Source of the DNA: Sporomusa sp. KB1
GTDB lineage: Bacteria > Bacillota > Negativicutes > Sporomusales > Sporomusaceae
Direction of reading: 5' to 3'
NCBI RefSeq assembly: GCF_007830295.1
Contig: NZ_VLKC01000001.1
Span: 329,773-393,772, forward strand
Length of the DNA: 64,000 nucleotides
Of this stretch, positions 12,190 to 56,520 are shown piece after piece (positions within the stretch are counted from its first letter, which is position 1; every line of letters starts with the position of its first letter). The notes under the pieces were generated by a model that saw only the letters and a program-made list of their open reading frames with translations, was not told the origin of the DNA and searched no databases. Position numbers and translations under genes: made by a program.

Positions 12190-12305
12190 CAAGTTTCAGC
12201 TACCTTTCATGCTGCAACCTGGCAATCTTAGACTAGAATCTTTAGACCCATGGCTTTGCGTCCCACCTTTTCAGGAGGTTTGCAGGAGGTTTGCCGATAT
12301 TATTT
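12190..12305 (-). promoter_or_regulatory. c-di-GMP-I (GEMM-I) riboswitch upstream of the STAS gene
   Basis: On the minus strand the GEMM-I landmarks appear in order: GCAAACC, a short stem with a GAAA-type loop, GGGACGCAAAGCC, ATGGGTCTAA, then after a second stem GATTGCCAGGTTGC. These are the conserved parts of the aptamer, including the tetraloop and its receptor. The 5' strand is duplicated in tandem (11-bp unit AGGAGGTTTGC, twice at 12283-12304), so two alternative P1 strands are available. Downstream hairpins at 12087-12185 may be the expression platform; no classic terminator with a T-run is visible. Confidence 0.85.
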
Positions 12306-17944: not shown

Positions 17945-18240
17945 AAAAAAGACCTTTGTCTCAAATTTCATTGAGGCAAAAGTCTTTACATCTGCGGTAC
18001 CACTCAAATTGATGCGAAAACGCACCTGCTTTTTCTGCATACACTATTATGATATGCACTTCCTTGGTAACGGGTGAAGTTCCCGTCAGGTACTACTAGG
18101 CAGCTGTGCTTGTAGCCGCTTTTCGTCTTGCCCTCTTAAGTCCATTCAGCTAAGGCCTCTCTGTTGCGATTTCACCACCCGCAACTCTCTGTAAGTGACC
18201 AGCACAAAACCTACTCTTCTTAATCATCGGTTTTAATATA
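17945..18240 (-). promoter_or_regulatory. T-box leader, tryptophan-specific
   Basis: On the minus strand the leader contains, in order, the AGAGAG stem I element, GGGTGGTG with a partner, a specifier loop GAATGGAC whose TGG codon (18144-18142) denotes Trp, and the T-box core GTGGTACCGC (18003-17994). The last element is an intrinsic terminator (stem about 17951-17984 followed by TTTTTTATTT). Uncharged tRNA-Trp should stabilise the antiterminator and switch on trpB2. The element is about 290 bases and ends some 40 bases before the trpB2 start. Confidence 0.92.
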
Positions 18241-19191: not shown

Positions 19192-20265
19192 TCATACAAG
19201 TTGCGCTTCCCCAGGATTAAAGGCGACCTTAATATGCATCCCTACTGATAATCTGCCGATAACTTTCTCTCTTTGAACACGCACTGTCAAAGGCAACCCT
19301 TGTGCCTCTACCATAATGCGATACATCCCAATTCCTGGCACTATCTGTGAAATAACACCTCCCATAACTACCCATGGCTTATCCTGATAGGCGAACTGTT
19401 CATCGCATACATACAGACAATCTCCTGGCAGGCAACAGACCGTCGCCGCCAGAATAACTTCTCCCGTCCAGGCAAAACGCACACCGTTAACCAGTTTCAC
19501 AAAAACGGCATCAGCCTGTTGCTCCACCTGACAAGGAACGATATTATCCATTTCGACCAAACTGGCAATTGCCTTATTCACCGGGCGGCGCAAGATTTCT
19601 TCCGGCTTATCATCCTGTACGATACAACCTGCCTGCAACACCAAAGCCCGCGCAGCAAAATACAGTACATCGTTAAAATTATGACTGACTAACAGTACTG
19701 TAGTACCACGTTCCATAGCCACCTGCCTTAGTTCAGCCAGCAAGGTATTGCGGGTAGGCGAATCAAGAGCGGCAAACGGTTCATCTAACAACAATAGTTC
19801 AGGTTCATAAACCAGGGCACGTGCCAAACAAACCCGCTGCGCCTCTCCTCCAGATAAATTCCGGGCCCTTCTTGTAACCAAGTGAGTACAATGAAAAGCC
19901 TCTAACGCCCTATTTACTTTTTCTTTGATTATGCTAGGAGACATGCCACGAAACTTTAACGCCAATGCCACATTATTAAATACAGTATCATCTAATAACA
20001 TTGTCTCTTGAAAAACCATCGCACATCGGCGGCGTAGCGTCTGTTTGTCAGCTCTGTCAACATCTTCTCCGAATAAATACATCTTCCCCACTTTAGAGGA
20101 CAAATGCATATTAATCAACTGCAACAGCGTACTTTTGCCTGCACCATTAGGCCCGACTACAGCAATAATCTCACCTGCCGATATTGACAATGCTTCAATA
20201 TTTAATATCTGGCGCTTATTACGAAAAACTTCTATATCAGCTATTTTCAGCACTGTTTGCCTCAT
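19192..20265 (-). CDS. tupC: Tungstate ABC transporter ATP-binding protein
   Basis: A 357-residue ATPase that energises tungstate (or molybdate) import. It has Walker A GPNGAGKST, signature LSGGEAQR and Walker B LLLLDEP, plus a long C-terminal extension (about 235-357) of the TOBE type, typical for oxyanion transporters. The start overlaps the end of the permease gene by four bases (ATGA). The nearby AOR and molybdopterin genes support tungstate as substrate. No tungstate-binding protein gene (tupA) is present in the window. Confidence 0.85.
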   Translation of the reverse strand: MRQTVLKIADIEVFRNKRQILNIEALSISAGEIIAVVGPNGAGKSTLLQLINMHLSSKVGKMYLFGEDVDRADKQTLRRRCAMVFQETMLLDDTVFNNVALALKFRGMSPSIIKEKVNRALEAFHCTHLVTRRARNLSGGEAQRVCLARALVYEPELLLLDEPFAALDSPTRNTLLAELRQVAMERGTTVLLVSHNFNDVLYFAARALVLQAGCIVQDDKPEEILRRPVNKAIASLVEMDNIVPCQVEQQADAVFVKLVNGVRFAWTGEVILAATVCCLPGDCLYVCDEQFAYQDKPWVVMGGVISQIVPGIGMYRIMVEAQGLPLTVRVQREKVIGRLSVGMHIKVAFNPGEAQLV

Positions 20266-20966
20266 ACAATTTCCCGCTTTCCATCGTTTTGCATATAGGT
20301 CAGCAAAGCGACTATCATATAAGCAACCATCAGCAAAACAAAACTGAAAGCCAGTGCCATGTCGTAATTACCTTTGCTAACTTCCATAACTGTGGCTGTA
20401 GTCAGCACCCTTGTCTCGCCTTTAATATTACCACCGACCATCATCGATGCTCCTACCTCTGAGATCACGCCGCCAAAACCGGCCATTACTGCTGCTAATA
20501 AACCCATTTTAGCTTCTTTAATTAGTAACCAATTAGCCTGCCACTCGGTAGCGCCCAGTGAAAGTAGCTGAAACCGTAGTTTAGGATTGAGTCCACTAAG
20601 CGCCGCAAAACTTAAGCCAGCTACAATAGGACTGGCAATAACAGCCTGGGCGATAATCATCGCCCAGACCGTATACATCAAGCCTAGCATACCCAATGGT
20701 CCGTATCTCCATAAAAACAAACTCACAACTAACCCTACTACCACTGGTGGCAGCCCCATACCAAAATTGATAAAACTAAGGCACAGTTTTTTTCCCGGAA
20801 AGTCTTTTAAAGCTAACCATAGACCCACCGGAATTCCTACCCCCACACTAATCAGAGTTGCCCAACCAGATACTTTGATAGTCAAAAGGGCAACATCATA
20901 GACCTCAGCATCACCATTTACCAAAAGATATAGCGCTTGGAACAAACCTGAAAATATACTATCCAT
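20262..20966 (-). CDS. tupB: Tungstate ABC transporter permease
   Basis: A 234-residue inner-membrane protein with about five hydrophobic segments and the permease loop EVGASMMVGGNIKGETR (EAA-type motif that docks the ATPase). The GNIKG..R..TTA pattern is characteristic of TupB/WtpB-like permeases. An AGGA site precedes the ATG. Together with tupC it forms a two-gene unit. The usual first gene, tupA, is missing from the 440 bases upstream and from the rest of the window, so the binding protein must come from elsewhere. Confidence 0.85.
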   Translation of the reverse strand: MDSIFSGLFQALYLLVNGDAEVYDVALLTIKVSGWATLISVGVGIPVGLWLALKDFPGKKLCLSFINFGMGLPPVVVGLVVSLFLWRYGPLGMLGLMYTVWAMIIAQAVIASPIVAGLSFAALSGLNPKLRFQLLSLGATEWQANWLLIKEAKMGLLAAVMAGFGGVISEVGASMMVGGNIKGETRVLTTATVMEVSKGNYDMALAFSFVLLMVAYMIVALLTYMQNDGKREIV

Positions 20967-21407: not shown

Positions 21408-23414
21408 TTAACGCTTTTGGTAATTGGGAATAGCATACAATCGCATCTTATTATATAGAGTTTTTCGAGATATCCCTAATTCTTTTGCTACTCGACTAAC
21501 ATTGCCAGCAAATGCATCGAGCTTACTAATTATCTTATCTTTCTCCGTAAATTCCGCTATCTTCTTCCGCTGTTCCCTGCTAAAAATAGTGTCATTTGGT
21601 TGTGGGACTGCTTGTTCCCTGAGCGAAGATGGTGCATAAAACACTTCAGGTAAATGCCCCACAGTAATAACTCCATTTTCCGCTAAGCAGGCCGCGTGTT
21701 CGATCACGTTTTGTAGTTCTCGAACATTACCTGGCCAGTGATATCTGTTTAAATAAGCAATGACTTTGAATTCCACAGAATATTGGCAACCCTGTTCGCG
21801 GCTCAACTTTTCTAAAAAATGTTCAAAAAGCGGTTGTATATCTTCACGCCGCTCCCGCAACGGCGGAATAATGATCGACAACACATTTAATCTATAATAA
21901 AGATCAAGCCGAAAGGCTCCTTTTTCTACTTCTTCCAACAGATTTTTATTGGTTGCACAAATCAAACGAATGTTAATCGGGATCGTCTTATCGCTGCCAA
22001 TTCGCGTTACTTTTCTTTCTTGTATCACTCTAAGTAAGGCGATTTGCTGTTCGAATGGCATGTCCCCGATTTCATCCAAAAAAAGAGTTCCACCAGAAGC
22101 TAGTTCGAACTTCCCCGGTTTACCGCCCCGTTTTGCCCCTGTAAAAGCCCCTTCATCATAGCCAAATAGCTCACTGCCAATTAGCTCCCGGGGGATGGCC
22201 CCGCAATTGACAGCCACAAATGGTCCATTATGCTTGGCACTTTGATTGTGAATGGCTTGGGCAAATATTTCTTTACCTGTACCACTTTCACCAGTCAGCA
22301 AAATATTTGATGTAGTAGTCGCAGCCCGTGTAGCAACATGGATAGCTTCGCAGATTTGAACACTTTTTCCAACAATATCGTTGAACTGTAACGTGGCAGA
22401 GTTGCCAATAAAACGATTAACCATATTTTTCACTTGTTTGAGCGATCTGAGGAAAATGATGCCGCCAGTTACCACGTCTTGCTCATTAATTATCGGCTCA
22501 CGAGAAGCTACACACTGACATCCGCCCCCCTGGATATTCACTGTTATCTCGACATCGTGATAACTTTTACTAGCAGTTAGCATTTCCCCTGATCTACTGT
22601 CAAATAAGCGCTTAAGTTCTATTCCTAAAATATGTTGTTCCGACTTTCCGAGCATAGCCTTAGCTGCCGGATTTATTTCGATTACAACCTCATTGTTATC
22701 AACTAACAGCACGCCATCGGAAACGGTATTTAAAAAATTGGTTACTCTTTTATTAAGCAAAATCAATTCACAATTTTTTTGCCAAATACTTAACTGCGCC
22801 GTAATAGCTTCAGCAATAACTGCTACCATTCCGAGTGTATGCAAATGGGACGCATGAGACGCGTGAGATATATCTAAAACACCAATAATCCGTCCATTTG
22901 AATCATAAATCGACGCTGCCGAGCAGGCAAAAGAATGAATTTTTTTGCAATAATGCTCCGCACCTGATACCTGAAGTGGTTCTCCCAACTTGATCACTGT
23001 TCCAATGGCATTAGTCCCTACATCTTCTTCCCGCCAGCTAACGCCAGGATAAAAGCATCTAGTCATTGGATTATGCTTATTATCTTCGTCGCATAACATT
23101 TCAAGAATACAGCCATTTTCGTCAGTTAATACAATTATAAAGCCGGATCCTTTAAAAAATTTATAAAGCTTAGACATAAAGGGTTTTGCGATCTGAATAA
23201 GTTTTTCTTTTTCTTTCAAAACCTTATGCAGGTCCAAAGCATCTAACTCGTGGTGAATTTGATCATCATAAGGATCTACTCCCTCATGATAGCACCTGTC
23301 CCACGACTCAATAATCTGTTGACGAGCTTTGCACGTATCGGGATTACCTGTCTGTAAGAATTTTTCCCATTCCATATAAACAGGGTCCATCATAGGCAAA
23401 GCAATAATCGTCAT
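21408..23414 (-). CDS. Sigma-54-dependent transcriptional activator (AcoR-like)
   Basis: A 668-residue enhancer-binding protein. The N-terminal half holds a GAF-type sensor (YPGVSWREEDVGTNAIG, typical of AcoR) and a PAS domain (VSDGVLLVDNNEVVIEINPAA). The central AAA+ domain has GESGTGKE, the sigma-54 contact loop GAFTGA and GTLFLDEIGDMP. The C-terminus is a Fis-type helix-turn-helix (VAKELGISRKTLYNKM). I start at the ATG at 23414, eight bases after GGAG. It lies directly downstream of AOR and upstream of tupBC and probably regulates the aldehyde-oxidation locus. I could not find a clear -24/-12 promoter upstream of AOR by eye. Confidence 0.88.
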   Translation of the reverse strand: MTIIALPMMDPVYMEWEKFLQTGNPDTCKARQQIIESWDRCYHEGVDPYDDQIHHELDALDLHKVLKEKEKLIQIAKPFMSKLYKFFKGSGFIIVLTDENGCILEMLCDEDNKHNPMTRCFYPGVSWREEDVGTNAIGTVIKLGEPLQVSGAEHYCKKIHSFACSAASIYDSNGRIIGVLDISHASHASHLHTLGMVAVIAEAITAQLSIWQKNCELILLNKRVTNFLNTVSDGVLLVDNNEVVIEINPAAKAMLGKSEQHILGIELKRLFDSRSGEMLTASKSYHDVEITVNIQGGGCQCVASREPIINEQDVVTGGIIFLRSLKQVKNMVNRFIGNSATLQFNDIVGKSVQICEAIHVATRAATTTSNILLTGESGTGKEIFAQAIHNQSAKHNGPFVAVNCGAIPRELIGSELFGYDEGAFTGAKRGGKPGKFELASGGTLFLDEIGDMPFEQQIALLRVIQERKVTRIGSDKTIPINIRLICATNKNLLEEVEKGAFRLDLYYRLNVLSIIIPPLRERREDIQPLFEHFLEKLSREQGCQYSVEFKVIAYLNRYHWPGNVRELQNVIEHAACLAENGVITVGHLPEVFYAPSSLREQAVPQPNDTIFSREQRKKIAEFTEKDKIISKLDAFAGNVSRVAKELGISRKTLYNKMRLYAIPNYQKR

Positions 23415-23488
23415 ACAAATCACTCCTTTCTTGTTAGCCATTCACCTGTCGCAATAATCATCAATACACCAACTAAATCCCCTTTGTT

Positions 23489-23617: not shown

Positions 23618-25345
23618 CTAGAAATTAAATACTTCGTCGATTTCTTCGTCTGTGAAGTCCCAGGTAGTGTTATGTGGTGCACATTCTTCCTCAAAGAACT
23701 CCGGCAAGCGGTCATCGGCATTGGTAAAGCCGGCCCGATGGTTGAAGCCGCGCTCAGCCTTGAGAACAGATTTTCCGAGCTCAGTAACATCGTCAGCGGT
23801 AAGGGACAGACCGTACTGGGCATTAATCATATCAATCAACGCCTGGAAACCATCGGGAATATCCAGGATAGCGAAAGCAACAAACAGGCACATACCGGTG
23901 CTGTCAACAGCGGCAGTGGCAATTTGCAGGTTGCGGGACAGTTCGATATTACCCTCTTTTTTCAGCGGGTCGACATCGCCGCCGATCTTGAGGATATTGG
24001 TAGCAACCGCATAACCGGACGTATGGTCAGCGCCCATCGGAGTGGTAGCGTAGGTCAAACCTACACCCTTAACCGCACGCGGGTCGTACGCTGGAATTGC
24101 CTGGCCCTTGACGACAGGAACCCTGGAAACGCCATAGACGCGTCCTACGGTTGCTGCACCACAGCCGAGAATCCGGCCTTGGGGAGTTCCCTTGCGAATT
24201 TCTTTAATCAGTTCCATGGCAGCCTTGCCATCGCCCCAGGGAATGACACCGCCTTCCATATAAACACCAATGGCAACAGTGATATCAATAGAATCTACAC
24301 CAACATCATCGCATTCACGGTCGGCATAGGCAATAAGGTCAAGGTCATTAATTTTGGCGTTGGCGCCAAGAGCCCAAATAGTCTCATACTCAAAACCGCT
24401 GGTAATATATTTGCCTTGCTTATCAACATAGTGCTGGGAGCAACGCATGATGCAACCGGCATGGCAGCCGTGGCTAGGTTTACCACCGCGGGCTTCCATG
24501 GTTGCAGTCATGGTTTCGCCGCCGATGTCATTGGCCCATTCGTTCCGGCCACGACGGAAATTTTCAGTAGGCAGACCGCCGGCTTCGTTCAGAATGTTGA
24601 CCAGAATGTTGGTACCATATTTGGTTATACCCTGACTGGTGACCGGGTGAGTTGTAAGGGCTTTGGCAAATCGCTTGGCAGCACTCTTGAAATCCTCGCG
24701 ATTAACAATGGGAACACCGGGAGCGCCAGTATCATCGATAACAACCGCTTTTATCTTCTTGGAACCCATGACAGCGCCCAGGCCGCCGCGGCCAGCGCTG
24801 CGGATATTGCTTTCAGGATCGGCAAAGGAAATGTTGGCTGCCGAAAGCTTCATTTCACCGGCCGGACCAATGATGGCCACACCGGCTTTAGCACCGTATT
24901 TTGCCTGCAGGACTTTAATGGCTTCGTAGTTACCCATGCCGATGGTTTCAGCGGGGGCATCTTCAATGGTCACATCATTCATTGTAATTTTGACGATGAA
25001 ATACTTATCTTCTGCCGGAATTCCTTCAAACACAATTGCCTTAATGCCCATTTTGGCCATCTTTTGACCAAACGTGCCGCCAGTGTTACTTTCTTTGATA
25101 CCACCGGTTAACGGGCTCTTAGCGCCACAGGAAAGCCGGCCAGAATTGGCGGCGTTGGTACCGGTAAGATAGCCGGGTGCAAAAATCAATTTGTTGTTTT
25201 TCCCCAGTGGATGACAGGTTGGCTTCACTTCGTCGGCAACGAAGTTGGAAGTAAGCGCACGGCCTGCTATGCCGGCGTACTTCTCGGGAACTTCGCTGGT
25301 AGCAACATTTTTCGTTGCCATGTCTACACGGATAAACTTACTCAT
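23618..25345 (-). CDS. aor: Tungsten-containing aldehyde:ferredoxin oxidoreductase
   Basis: A 575-residue enzyme that interconverts aldehydes and carboxylic acids with ferredoxin, using tungsten bis-pyranopterin and one [4Fe-4S] cluster. The AOR N-terminal domain includes FAPGYLTGTNAANSGRLS, and DPESNIRSAGRGGLGAVMGSKK is the pterin-binding region. Cluster cysteines appear to be Cys294, Cys298, Cys302 and Cys486; the first pair is spaced CxxxC rather than the CxxC known from Pyrococcus AOR. I start at the ATG at 25345 with GGAGG upstream. A Moco/Tuco-like riboswitch lies in the leader. Genes for tungstate uptake, cofactor synthesis, a sigma-54 regulator and an AOR maturase surround it. Confidence 0.92.
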   Translation of the reverse strand: MSKFIRVDMATKNVATSEVPEKYAGIAGRALTSNFVADEVKPTCHPLGKNNKLIFAPGYLTGTNAANSGRLSCGAKSPLTGGIKESNTGGTFGQKMAKMGIKAIVFEGIPAEDKYFIVKITMNDVTIEDAPAETIGMGNYEAIKVLQAKYGAKAGVAIIGPAGEMKLSAANISFADPESNIRSAGRGGLGAVMGSKKIKAVVIDDTGAPGVPIVNREDFKSAAKRFAKALTTHPVTSQGITKYGTNILVNILNEAGGLPTENFRRGRNEWANDIGGETMTATMEARGGKPSHGCHAGCIMRCSQHYVDKQGKYITSGFEYETIWALGANAKINDLDLIAYADRECDDVGVDSIDITVAIGVYMEGGVIPWGDGKAAMELIKEIRKGTPQGRILGCGAATVGRVYGVSRVPVVKGQAIPAYDPRAVKGVGLTYATTPMGADHTSGYAVATNILKIGGDVDPLKKEGNIELSRNLQIATAAVDSTGMCLFVAFAILDIPDGFQALIDMINAQYGLSLTADDVTELGKSVLKAERGFNHRAGFTNADDRLPEFFEEECAPHNTTWDFTDEEIDEVFNF

Positions 25346-25493
25346 AAAAAACCTCCTCAACAATTATGATTTTATATAAAAAGAGATGCTAAAAATATTT
25401 AGTAAACTATTTTAGTAAATATTTTTTAGAACCTCTTCTTTAATTTTTCTTCAAAGGGTGTCCACCAGAATAAGAAATAAGCACGTAAACAAC

Positions 25494-25605
25494 AAAAAAG
25501 GAAGCCCGTGTTACGGACTTCCTTTGCGTAATGGCAGGCGCAAAAATTCCTCTTCGCACCCTGTTTACTATCACCTGGCTGGCGATAGCAACTCGGAACT
25601 CTTAA
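25494..25605 (-). promoter_or_regulatory. Moco/Tuco-type riboswitch candidate in the AOR leader
   Basis: On the minus strand: CCGAGTTGCTATCG, a stem, AAACAGGG, a hairpin containing GAAGAGGAA, then CTGCC. An intrinsic terminator follows (stem 25522-25500, then six T). CAGGG + GAAGGAA-type hairpin + a C-rich complement resembles what I recall of the E. coli moaA Moco element, and the gene controlled encodes a tungstopterin enzyme. A homologous element faces the other way at 25742. I have not run a covariance search. Confidence 0.6.
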
Positions 25606-25741
25606 TAATGTATATATTTGCTCCATACTTTAAGATTCCTGCAAGGGGAAAATTTTTTTTTTAAAGAAGATTTCTAATATATACTTACCGAGTAATACTT
25701 TTTGCAGGAATTTAGTTGGTATAAAGAGAATATATCCTATC

Positions 25742-25851
25742 AAGAGTTCCGAGTTACTATCGTCAGATCGGCGATAGTAAACAGGGTATGAGAAGGAATT
25801 CTCATACCAGCCATTGCGCAAAGGAAGTCCGTTAACTCGGGCTTCCTTTTT
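25742..25851 (+). promoter_or_regulatory. Moco/Tuco-type riboswitch candidate in the moeA leader
   Basis: The plus-strand mirror of the AOR element: GAGTTCCGAGTTACTATCG, AAACAGGG, a hairpin with GAAGGAA, CCAGCC, then the terminator stem GGAAGTCCG/CGGGCTTCC (25823-25846) and TTTTT. It lies about 120 bases before the moeA start. Conservation of the loops and of the terminator between the two copies argues for a ligand-controlled attenuator. Confidence 0.6.
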
Positions 25852-25973
25852 GTATTTTGCCTAATTATTAGAGAAAATGTGCTTTCTGTTGATTTTTGGT
25901 GGCATCAACGGAAGCACACAAAAGAAACTACGTTCAAATTTGCATAATATAATATACTACTGGAGGTTGGAAA

Positions 25974-29120: not shown

Positions 29121-30480
29121 GATAAGGTACAATAAGTTTCGCAAATTGAAATACGGCTAAAAAAGAGGACAAGTTTGCAGTTCCCCGGTAAAATGAAGTC
29201 ACCACACACCATTTACCGAAAGGGGAAGAGCAAACATGTCCAAAGAAATTATACAGTTGAATGAAGAAATCATCAAGGTAGAACTGAAGGAACTGGTGCG
29301 TAGCAGCGTGGAGGAAACGCTCAATAACTTGCTGGATCAGGAAGCCAAAGACCTAACCCAGGCGGCCCGATATGAGCGTACTGAAACCCGTCAAGGTTAC
29401 CGCTCCGGTCACTACGACAGGCGGTTGACTACTACCTCCGGCGATGTCACGCTGAAAGTTCCCAAGCTCAAGGGCATTCCTTTTGAAACCGCCATTATCG
29501 AACGCTATCGCCGGCGGGAAAGTTCCGTAGAAGAAGCGCTCATCGAAATGTATCTAGCTGGCGTATCCGTCCGGCGAGTGGAAGACATCACCGAGGCTCT
29601 GTGGGGCAGCAAGGTATCGCCGTCCACCATCAGTGAGTTGAATAAGAAGGCCTATGTCCACATTGAAGAGTGGCGCAGTCGGCCGCTGCAAAGTGGTAAG
29701 TATCCCTATGTTTACGTCGACGGCATTTACTTACGCCGCAACTGGGGCGGTGAATATGAGAATGTGAGCGTATTGGTGGCGATTGCCGTCAACGAAGACG
29801 GCTACCGTGAAGTGCTGGGAGCGGCCGAAGGCATGAAAGAAGACAAAGTCAGTTGGCTGGAATTCTTCAAATGGCTGAAAAGCCGCGGTTTAACAGGCGT
29901 CCAACTGATCATTGGTGATAAATGCCAAGGGATGCTGGCAGCGGCAAATGAGGTCTTCCCCCAGGCCAAATACCAGCGCTGCACTGTTCACTTTTACCGC
30001 AATGTCTTTTCAGTTGTTCCCCGCTCCAAGGTCAAAACGGTTGCGAAAATGCTCAAAGCGATTCATGCGCAGGAAAGCAAGTCCGCTGCCCGGGAAAAGG
30101 CGGCACAGGTAGCAAAAAGCTTGCGCGACATGAAACTCAAAGAAGCGGCGGCCAAAATCGAGGAAAGCATCGAGGAAACGCTTGCTTATGCCGACTTTCC
30201 CGGCGAGCACTGGACAAGAATCCGGACTAACAATGTGATTGAGAGACTCAACCGGGAGATCAGGCGGCGAACCAGGGTCGTGGGTGCTTTCCCGGATGGG
30301 CAGTCCGCTCTGATGCTGGTCTGCGCCCGCCTTCGCCACGTTGCTGGAACCCAGTGGGGCAGTAAAAAGTATATGAATATGAAACATCTAGAAAATACCG
30401 ACCCTGAGTCGGATTTTAGTGATGACTGATTTTACTACCTAGGACTGCAAACCTTTTTGCGAAACTTTCTTGACACTACC
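29121..30480 (+). mobile_element. IS256-family insertion sequence, apparently complete
   Basis: The element is 1,360 bases. The left end GATAAGGTACAATAAGTTTC and the reverse complement of the right end GGTAGTGTCAAGAAAGTTTC agree at 18 of 25 positions, with the inner 12 bases identical. An 8-bp direct repeat TTTCTCTA (29113-29120 and 30481-30488) flanks it, the size expected for IS256 elements. It holds one intact transposase gene. The left terminal repeat is more diverged than the right, which might reduce mobility. Confidence 0.85.
29236..30429 (+). CDS. IS256-family (Mutator-like) DDE transposase
   Basis: A 397-residue transposase. The catalytic acidic residues are visible as YVDGIYL (first Asp), IIGDKCQG (second Asp) and NNVIERLNREIRRRTR (Glu). 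The QRCTVHFYRNV segment is the C-x2-H motif typical of this family. The reading frame is intact and of normal length; the ATG follows an AGGGG site. It is slightly more GC-rich than the flanks. Confidence 0.95.
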   Translation: MSKEIIQLNEEIIKVELKELVRSSVEETLNNLLDQEAKDLTQAARYERTETRQGYRSGHYDRRLTTTSGDVTLKVPKLKGIPFETAIIERYRRRESSVEEALIEMYLAGVSVRRVEDITEALWGSKVSPSTISELNKKAYVHIEEWRSRPLQSGKYPYVYVDGIYLRRNWGGEYENVSVLVAIAVNEDGYREVLGAAEGMKEDKVSWLEFFKWLKSRGLTGVQLIIGDKCQGMLAAANEVFPQAKYQRCTVHFYRNVFSVVPRSKVKTVAKMLKAIHAQESKSAAREKAAQVAKSLRDMKLKEAAAKIEESIEETLAYADFPGEHWTRIRTNNVIERLNREIRRRTRVVGAFPDGQSALMLVCARLRHVAGTQWGSKKYMNMKHLENTDPESDFSDD

Positions 30481-32760: not shown

Positions 32761-33969
32761 TTATGGACAAGCTATAATTCTTCTGGCCCAAAGGCATTCG
32801 GCGCACGACGGGCTATTGGCCCAGCAATCCATTTCATTACTATCCGTATAATTACACCCGTCAAGCATCCTGCAATCTGTACAAGAAGGAAAGCGATAAT
32901 CATTAACAGTCTGTCTAAAATTAACATAACCGGAATCCATCCATATTTCTCGCAATGTTTTTTCATTGACATTTCCTAAATAACACGGGTACATTTGTTT
33001 TTGTCTACCATATACATAACACTGATAAGTATGCATTAGTGGGTAACAGGGACTAACGTTTCCCTTATGGTTGATACATAAAGACTTGTCCTGTACAAAC
33101 TTACAGTACCGTTCTGTTCTTAATTTCATATTGGACATATTAGCCTTAAGAGAAATTAGCAAGGATTCATAAGAGTGACAACCAAACATAGCACCCGTGT
33201 CATCAGTATCGTAGACGATTTCGTCCTTCATGGATTCATGATAAGGCAGCAAATTGGTTACGATAACTTGGCTGGCTTTTAAATCCCAGGCCATGCGGAT
33301 TAACTTAGGCAACCGATCAAAATTCTTCTTCATGGCGACAAACTCAATTCCAAGTTCCGGTTTTTTAGTCCTCCTTTCCCGCTTCATAGCCTGTAAATTT
33401 ACTATATTGCTATAAACGCTCTGAAAGTTAGCCCCTTGCCGAATTTCATTATATTCTTCCTCTTCAGGGCTATCGAGAGAGGTAAACAAAACATCTACTT
33501 GAAGGCCTATTAATTTTTGAATAACTTCTTCCCGTAGAAAGGAACCGTTGGTGATCATTTCCACATTCAAGCCAAGTTCCTTCACAGCCTTCAGCATGTC
33601 AAAAATCCTAGGATGCAGCAAAGGTTCACCAAACCCGCCAAAATGAACCGACTCCAGGTCCGGCAATTCTTTTAGGCTATTTAGGATTTTCTCAAAGGTG
33701 CTCCATTCCATATGTGTCAATTCATCCTGCCAGGAACTACGAATACACGTTATACAGGCAAAATTGCATTTGGTAGTAACCTCAATATATACTCTTTTCA
33801 CATCCTGTATCAGCGTAATTAGCCGATATCCACTATCAGTAGGAACAAATAACACTTCTTGATCCGTATCCAAAGAAACGGGTAATTTTACATAACCATC
33901 CTTAGCAATCTGAACTTTTTGACCTACCGGCAAAACTTGGTTTATTGTCTTCTTAGATGTTTTTTCCAT
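32761..33969 (-). CDS. Radical SAM/SPASM maturase of tungsten oxidoreductases (Cmo-like)
   Basis: A 402-residue radical SAM protein. The first about 55 residues form a beta-rich AbrB-like segment (VLPVGQKVQIAKDGYVKLPV). The SAM triad is CNFACITC, the GGFGEPLLHP motif follows, and the Cys-rich C-terminus (CTDCRMLDGCNY...CAECLW) is an SPASM-type auxiliary cluster region. This layout, and the C-terminal CAECLWARRIIACP, match what I know as the AOR cofactor-modifying radical SAM family. The ATG follows GGGAGGG. It completes the AOR locus together with the NifS-like enzyme, although IS256 and a gene remnant now separate them from AOR. Confidence 0.8.
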   Translation of the reverse strand: MEKTSKKTINQVLPVGQKVQIAKDGYVKLPVSLDTDQEVLFVPTDSGYRLITLIQDVKRVYIEVTTKCNFACITCIRSSWQDELTHMEWSTFEKILNSLKELPDLESVHFGGFGEPLLHPRIFDMLKAVKELGLNVEMITNGSFLREEVIQKLIGLQVDVLFTSLDSPEEEEYNEIRQGANFQSVYSNIVNLQAMKRERRTKKPELGIEFVAMKKNFDRLPKLIRMAWDLKASQVIVTNLLPYHESMKDEIVYDTDDTGAMFGCHSYESLLISLKANMSNMKLRTERYCKFVQDKSLCINHKGNVSPCYPLMHTYQCYVYGRQKQMYPCYLGNVNEKTLREIWMDSGYVNFRQTVNDYRFPSCTDCRMLDGCNYTDSNEMDCWANSPSCAECLWARRIIACP

Positions 33970-41316: not shown

Positions 41317-41696
41317 GGTTTATTATAATGCAGAATATGGATTTCGTCAATGTATCATATGCATAGTCAATTCCGCAAATTGTTTTCTTTGTAGTTTTTA
41401 AACTATTAAATTCCAGCATTGACTTAAGTTTTCGTTTTATAAACCGATGAGTTTTTGCACCTGAATCCGTGATTGCATCACGAATTCATTTCTTCATCTC
41501 TGCCTTATTTAACTTACGGTTTGCATTGCAGAACATAAATATACGATTTGCAACATCGTTTACAGCATAATAAAAAACCGTCTGAACATACATTTATACA
41601 CTTATGTATATTGTTGCCCAGACGGTCGACATCTTTCAAGAACTTGTACTTGGTGTGGTAAACTCCACTTAACCGTCAGTAGTACAAATCCAATAT

Positions 41697-52385: not shown

Positions 52386-52539
52386 ACAGTTCGCACCTTC
52401 TTTCAGAGTCAATACCATTTCTTCGTTATACAAATCATGAAAACCTTATCTGAAATATAATAGGTTGAAACACTACAGCAATGACCCACTCCTTTCAAAA
52501 TAAATAGGCTACTAAATTGCATTAGAGTTTCTAACTCAA

Positions 52540-52615
52540 TTTGCAACCTGGCAGCCATAACATTTTTGTCTTAGACCCATGGTTTTGCGTCCTTATTTTT
52601 CAATAAGTTTGCTTA
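52540..52615 (-). promoter_or_regulatory. c-di-GMP-I (GEMM-I) riboswitch upstream of a chemoreceptor gene
   Basis: The minus strand shows GCAAAC, stem TTATT-GAAA-AATAA, GGACGCAAAACC, ATGGGTCTAAG, a second stem, then TGGCTGCCAGGTTGC: the GEMM-I pattern including the GAAA tetraloop. Its P1 arms are GCAAAC and GGTTGC. A hairpin downstream (about 52508-52540) may be part of the expression platform. Compared with the copy at 12190 it lacks the duplicated 5' strand. Confidence 0.85.
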
Positions 52616-52847
52616 ATACTCAACTATTTTTATGTAAATTTTACCACCATTTATATGGCAAGTCTAGCTAAAACGTTTATTATTTGCTGTTATTTTGTCG
52701 TTTTTTACATAAATAGAAAGAATCGGACGAGGTGAAATCGTATCGACCTGATCGAACGGGAAGAAGTCCATCTGTCTAGGAATGCTTGTGAATACATAAC
52801 GAGCTGAGCATTCGGATGCTCAGCTCTCGGCGTACGGTACTATTCAC

Positions 52848-56365: not shown

Positions 56366-56387
56366 AGTGTTCAATGTAATAAATCGT

Positions 56388-56520
56388 TTTCTAGGGTTCC
56401 GCAGTTCGCTGGTCTGGTCCGAGAGAAAACGACAGTCTACGGACTGTAGCACGGAGGGATAAAAGCCCGGGAGAATAGCTGCAATATCGCAGTTTATTTT
56501 ACCAGGCTTTTACTTTTTTT
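56388..56520 (+). promoter_or_regulatory. Guanidine-I (ykkC) riboswitch with terminator
   Basis: The ykkC consensus is plain: CTAGGGTTCCG, CTGGTCCGAGAG, ACGGAGGGATAAAAGCCCGGGAGA. The 3' end of the aptamer (AAAGCCCGGGAGAATAGCTGC) is also one arm of a terminator stem that pairs with GCAGTTTATTTTACCAGGCT and is followed by seven T. Guanidinium binding should disrupt the terminator and permit expression of the two exporter genes. Confidence 0.95.

Follow-up and report, generated by a model that had tools for sequence, protein, structure and literature searches.

The window, the 64,000-nucleotide stretch of Sporomusa sp. KB1 DNA analysed here, is a tungsten-enzyme region. Within it, an aldehyde ferredoxin oxidoreductase gene (aor) and a gene of the molybdopterin molybdotransferase family (moeA) are transcribed away from each other, and genes for a tungstate-type transporter, a tungsten-enzyme maturase, MoaD-like and Mop proteins lie in the same window. 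The features of the locus are the following.

19192..20966 (−), tungstate-type ABC permease and ATPase genes, TupB-like and WtpC-like by their best specific NCBIfam matches, which lie under the family cut-offs
21408..23441 (−), sigma-54 activator gene downstream of aor (Pfam Sigma54_activat, GAF, PAS, HTH_8)
23618..25345 (−), aor, aldehyde ferredoxin oxidoreductase (Pfam AFOR_N and AFOR_C)
25378..25440 (−), second terminator-like hairpin of the aor leader, AT-rich (sequence comparison, fold)
25497..25525 (−), intrinsic terminator stem on the aor side (terminator scan, folds), with GGAAGUC at 25516-25522 common to P1
25513..25604 (−), aor-side aptamer, a P3-less Moco-family RNA with P1, P2, P4 with GGAA loop, and P5 (RF01055 and R1 scores, covariation)
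25614..25642 (−), putative sigma-H-like promoter of the aor leader, GCAGGAATC-N-GCAAATAT (pattern, enrichment, recurrence upstream of homologs)
25704..25733 (+), putative sigma-H-like promoter of the moeA leader, GCAGGAATT-N-GAGAATAT (pattern, enrichment, recurrence upstream of homologs)
25741..25832 (+), moeA-side aptamer, a P3-less Moco-family RNA (RF01055 and R1 scores, covariation)
25820..25849 (+), intrinsic terminator stem on the moeA side (terminator scan, folds), with GGAAGUC at 25823-25829 common to P1
25974..27188 (+), moeA, molybdopterin molybdotransferase family (Pfam MoeA_N, MoCF_biosynth, MoeA_C)
32761..33969 (−), tungsten cofactor oxidoreductase radical SAM maturase (TIGR04317, 428 bits against a cut-off of 380)

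An IS256-family transposase gene (29236-30429, +) also lies within the tungsten region. Other RNA elements of the window that exceed their cut-offs are a T-box, two c-di-GMP-I, a ZMP/ZTP and a guanidine-I riboswitch (17969-18236 (−), 12210-12294 (−), 41609-41693 (−), 52539-52623 (−), 56380-56475 (+)).

Between aor and moeA, two homologous leaders of about 110 nt point apart and form an inverted repeat, whose arms (25476-25615 and 25730-25869) are 140 nt long, 74% complementary and spaced by 114 nt. The terminator scan found four terminator-like sites compared with 0.5 ± 0.8 in shuffled sequence, and the fold stability of both leaders is far above that of shuffles (z = −7.06 and −7.35). The repeat arms, the terminators and the folds thereby confirm what the first-pass annotation had read from the letters, namely homologous leaders of about 110 bases that face opposite ways and each end in a terminator; the Pfam matches of the flanking genes likewise agree with its proposal that they serve a tungsten-enzyme gene and a cofactor-insertion gene. 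The AT-rich hairpin at 25378-25440 (−) looks like the terminator that belongs to the second tandem element before other aor genes, and to judge from this resemblance is apparently the leftover of a tandem second riboswitch, whose aptamer is missing at the window aor and kept elsewhere. An extra hairpin (25870-25930) lies between the moeA terminator and moeA; it also occurs in the Sporomusa genome G008 and is absent from S. ovata. Matches to miRNA families on the same bases were rejected as a product of the long inverted repeat.

Both leaders match the Rfam model of the Moco/Tuco RNA (RF01055), which has a gathering score of 36 bits. The aor-side match (25503-25610, −) reaches 33.2 bits (E 7.7e-6) and the moeA-side match (25735-25842, +) 23.4 bits (E 0.0056). 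Since both scores lie below 36, a default Rfam scan misses the window elements. The aor type misses the threshold only marginally, because the leader of the S. ovata aor ortholog (36.5 bits) and its paralog (36.9 bits) pass, and the moeA type stays under the cut-off. Thus, searching both strands with the Rfam Moco model, the check proposed along with the first-pass annotation, returned a match on each, but neither at the family threshold. On both strands, model positions 1-135 are matched full-length, including the conserved core together with P1, P2, P4 and P5, as the first-pass annotation had surmised when it compared the core with the Moco element.

Elsewhere in its own genome, RF01055 scores above the cut-off at nine places, and further elements of the window kind are present. 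Four RF01055 matches (L004, L006, L007 and L008, at C1:883023, C1:3907924, C2:56672 and C2:758236) carry the core CUCCUUAG in place of CUCCGAG. The genes behind them, for a 578-aa outer-membrane-like protein and small unknown proteins, have no plain link to molybdenum or tungsten, and the ligand of these elements may differ. Moco-family elements also precede sigma-54 activator genes at C1:842449 (−), C1:857638 (−), C1:827185 (−) and C1:4179987 (+); the activators are Pfam-backed for three of them, and some adjoin molybdopterin oxidoreductase genes. A switch in this position may act on the enzyme via its regulator.

The predicted fold is strongly supported by covariation. In an alignment of 13 homologous aptamers, 92.3% of the cells pair and 11 of the 32 pairs show changes on both sides, which none of 500 shuffles equals. 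A covariance model built from these sequences (R1) scores 102.0 bits on the aor side and 103.2 bits on the moeA side, both elements having served in its training. Within the window, the next full-length match reaches 10.4 bits and no other has a meaningful score; run without filters, R1 found no additional element ahead of the window's tungsten-maturase gene, and a plain pattern scan for additional elements proved too unspecific. Among 60 matches (54 distinct) aligned by fitting to R1, 93.3% of the cells pair and both sides change in 23 of 31 pairs, compared with 39-51% paired when the partners are slid as a control. Covariation among homologs, the second check that had been suggested, is therefore strong, and together with the RF01055 matches and the R1 scores above 100 bits it upholds the initial view of two divergent Moco/Tuco-like elements.

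In both copies the P3 positions are unfilled, so that no P3 stem is formed, while P2 contains a one-base bulge only and lacks the tetraloop receptor sequence. The P4 loop is GGAA, a GNRA tetraloop; across 56 elements it is mostly GGAA, GCAA or GUAA and rarely GAAA, in a script that sought GNRA loops only. Regulski et al (2008; PMC2408646) found a GAAA P4 loop in all Moco RNAs except five, with the receptor in P2 of nearly all GAAA-loop elements and none in GCAA elements. A receptor-less P2 beside a GGAA loop agrees with this rule. Within the known riboswitch family, the window elements form a variant, a divergent pair of Moco/Tuco-type RNAs that lack both P3 and the receptor and in which P1 and the terminator share a strand. 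A G-G mismatch in P1 of most copies counts against our preferred explanation, as do the RF01055 scores under the threshold at both window copies.

The divergent pair is present with both genes in three Sporomusa genomes: that of the window, S. ovata DSM 2662 and G008, whose contig stops shortly past the aor start. A tree of 20 elements separates a moeA-side clade (98/98) from an aor-side clade (97/97), each common to the three species. By this branching the pair predates these species, and a recent inverted duplication is not supported; the duplication by inversion proposed at first sight is thus not sustained as a recent event, and the gap between the aptamers also varies (136, 178 and 280 nt). 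The same data bear on the idea that function resides in the inverted repeat as such, as a DNA palindrome, a cruciform or a recent inverted duplication. Its 140-nt arms and their 74% complementarity are what speak for it, yet with a species-dependent gap, two copies in separate supported clades and single copies before other aor genes, we regard it as most improbable.

Nor is the back-to-back arrangement confined to this locus, as in G244, another genome of the class, two P3-containing Moco RNAs point apart between modABC and a TonB receptor gene (L153 4967-5379). Comparable elements are found in S. acidovorans upstream of a ThiF-family gene and of a further aor gene on the same strand. The S. 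ovata elements neighbouring the tungsten-maturase region precede a TonB receptor gene, and on S. ovata contig 5 three serial Moco RNAs lie before a TonB-receptor-like gene (L157 3437-4045, −). The KB1 genome contains a second aor copy (L013 9641-11366; C2:142640-144362) that is 98-99% identical, keeps a single riboswitch and is split into two reading frames in the assembly. A further aor at C1:3494086-3495810 (L102, L156) has a tandem leader like that of S. ovata aor1, and its protein is 98% identical to the window AOR, with S. ovata aor1 at 75%. This mismatch between leader and protein suggests gene conversion.

The spacer between the two leaders holds a short inverted segment, TTGCAGGAAT, once per strand, which recurs at a similar distance upstream of most homologs. 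Compared with the published sigma-H boxes RNAGGAWWW and RNNGAATWW (PMC8510167), the stretch at 25704-25733 (+) fits both, and that at 25614-25642 (−), which contains the segment GATTCCTGCAA pointed out earlier, has one mismatch in each. Three instances of the strict promoter pattern occur in the window, two of them in this spacer, compared with 0.16 in simple shuffles; a sigH gene is present in the genome, and the promoter scan found no sigma-70 promoters in the spacer. The inner segments, which had been read as an extension of the symmetry toward the centre, are thus real but lie outside the RNA symmetry, and by pattern fit the −35 boxes of two putative divergent promoters, presumably of the sigma-H class.

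The direction of the switch can be read from the anatomy of the leaders. In both copies the 3′ strand of P1, GGAAGUC, contributes to the 5′ arm of the terminator as well, and of 56 elements at least 45 have the P1 3′ strand inside the terminator stem. P1 contributes about −5.6 kcal/mol to the aptamer and the terminator hairpin about −18. Because one strand serves both helices, ligand binding should block termination, which makes the elements predicted ON switches with termination as the default. Each RNA would start in the central spacer, at its sigma-H-like promoter. As long as ligand is absent, GGAAGUC would enter the strong terminator and transcription would end ahead of aor or moeA. When ligand is bound, the nascent aptamer would keep GGAAGUC in P1, block the terminator and allow the gene to be read. 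Available tungsten cofactor would in this manner induce its user enzyme, along with a MoeA that probably assists in further cofactor synthesis. The first-pass annotation had named no direction; the anatomy, together with published tungstate data, now points to ON.

These data come from S. ovata, in which Ammam et al (2016; PMC4973070) compared transcripts at 10x and 1x tungstate by RT-qPCR without mention of riboswitches. With tungstate, aor1-2 rose 30.4-fold, aor4 14.3-fold, mop2 3.8-fold and fdhA2 3.3-fold, while aor3, mop1 and fdhA1 were unchanged. We placed the S. ovata genes by homology and gene order, the latter also giving the locus tags. A tandem pair of elements precedes each of aor1 and aor2. 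On contig SOV_5c both aor genes stand behind a single element, and the gene numbering favours the one with a divergent moeA as aor4. A P3-less element lies upstream of fdhA2, and for mop2 the upstream element stands before a sigma-54 activator gene rather than before mop2 itself. The aor3 element is decayed, P1 and the terminator being gone, and the stretches read at mop1 and fdhA1 contain no element. Among these seven Mo/W-enzyme transcripts, tungstate thus raised all four with an intact upstream element (3-30-fold) and none of the three without. This fit is striking and, if taken as a test, would arise by chance once in 35, but it is a post hoc comparison of small size that depends on locus tags deduced from gene order. 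Decayed aor3 leaders were located at L103 1377-1470 and L040 5882-5978, the one of the KB1 genome lacking the P1 3′ strand and the terminator arm.

The transcript data also weigh on a control of opposite sign, in which the ligand turns the genes OFF via an unrecognised antiterminator. In E. coli the element of moaA is repressive (Regulski et al, 2008; PMC2408646), and synthesis genes such as moeA are often under OFF control. However, P1 and the terminator are mutually exclusive on one strand in both copies and the S. ovata aor transcripts go up with tungstate, which leaves this explanation very unlikely. Alternatively, the tungstate response might stem from a DNA-binding regulator, the leaders being minor or sensing something else. 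A gene for an HTH_17 and PBP_like regulator (L035 10009-10944, −), a candidate metal-oxyanion sensor, lies near the S. ovata tup genes, and sigma-54 activator genes adjoin several elements; either could act in this way. Yet the paralog aor3 with its decayed element is unresponsive, and covarying structure and terminator overlap are kept in leaders across families, so that we consider a regulator of this kind quite unlikely as the main cause.

Taken together, we assign a probability of about 0.72 to the reading that two divergent P3-less riboswitches of the proposed Tuco form of RF01055 control transcription before aor and moeA as ON switches. The fold, its covariation, the overlap of P1 and terminator and the conservation of the pair in three genomes are observed. 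ON action on aor is supported by the anatomy and by the published data from a relative; moeA, we infer, responds alike.

For the ligand itself, the tungsten cofactor (Tuco) was proposed for P3-less RNAs on the basis of correlation only (Regulski et al, 2008; PMC2408646). The association with tungsten genes recurs here, with aor and moeA directly behind the elements and maturase and tungstate-type transporter genes nearby. In a literature search on divergent or tungsten-cofactor riboswitches, the 2008 study was the only relevant result and no test of Tuco sensing by P3-less RNAs was found. The same ON switches could respond to Moco or to a metal-free precursor, molybdopterin or its adenylated form, instead. 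MoeA acts on the precursor, so that its induction by its own substrate would make sense, both leaders share one architecture, and the correlative nature of the Tuco assignment leaves room for such a ligand. It was added tungstate, though, rather than a pathway block that raised the S. ovata transcripts with such leaders, and P3-less elements accompany tungsten genes; Moco or a precursor as ligand is therefore unlikely, if still worth bearing in mind. Against the tungsten cofactor we count that induction of a cofactor-synthesis gene by its own product is unusual. The wider proposal, that a receptor-less, P3-less subclass of Moco RNAs senses the tungsten cofactor and turns genes ON, in a feed-forward on a tungsten enzyme and a dedicated MoeA, is offered tentatively, at somewhat less than even odds.

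If this proposal is true, the rise of S. ovata aor, fdhA2 and mop2 transcripts with tungstate, as published, would count as evidence for a Tuco riboswitch in living cells. The 2008 proposal in any case gains a testable instance in a culturable acetogen with a large published tungstate response and ON as the predicted direction, and before the paralogous aor genes the element occurs naturally in single, tandem and decayed form. The response of aor is also relevant to the production of alcohol from CO2 via gas fermentation.

Compared with the P3-less Tuco type of RF01055 (Regulski et al, 2008; PMC2408646), the window elements share the core UCCGAG, AGGG and AAAGGA, the stems P1, P2, P4 with GNRA loop, and P5, the position before tungsten-enzyme and cofactor-synthesis genes, and the terminator as expression platform. 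They differ from the published elements in their sub-cut-off scores, a P2 without receptor, a P4 loop of GGAA rather than GAAA, a P5 closed by GC/GC, and a P1 that doubles as terminator strand (ON). The tandem Moco/Tuco RNAs of S. wolfei and G. metallireducens described in the same study, and those of S. ovata aor1 and aor2, likewise place more than one terminator-ended element in a control region. In contrast to these serial elements acting on one gene, the window pair is divergent and provides one element for each gene. A counterpart in arrangement, the G244 pair, also sets two back-to-back Moco-family RNAs between divergent metal-related genes, but there the RNAs contain P3 and face transport genes, whereas the P3-less RNAs of the window face aor and moeA.
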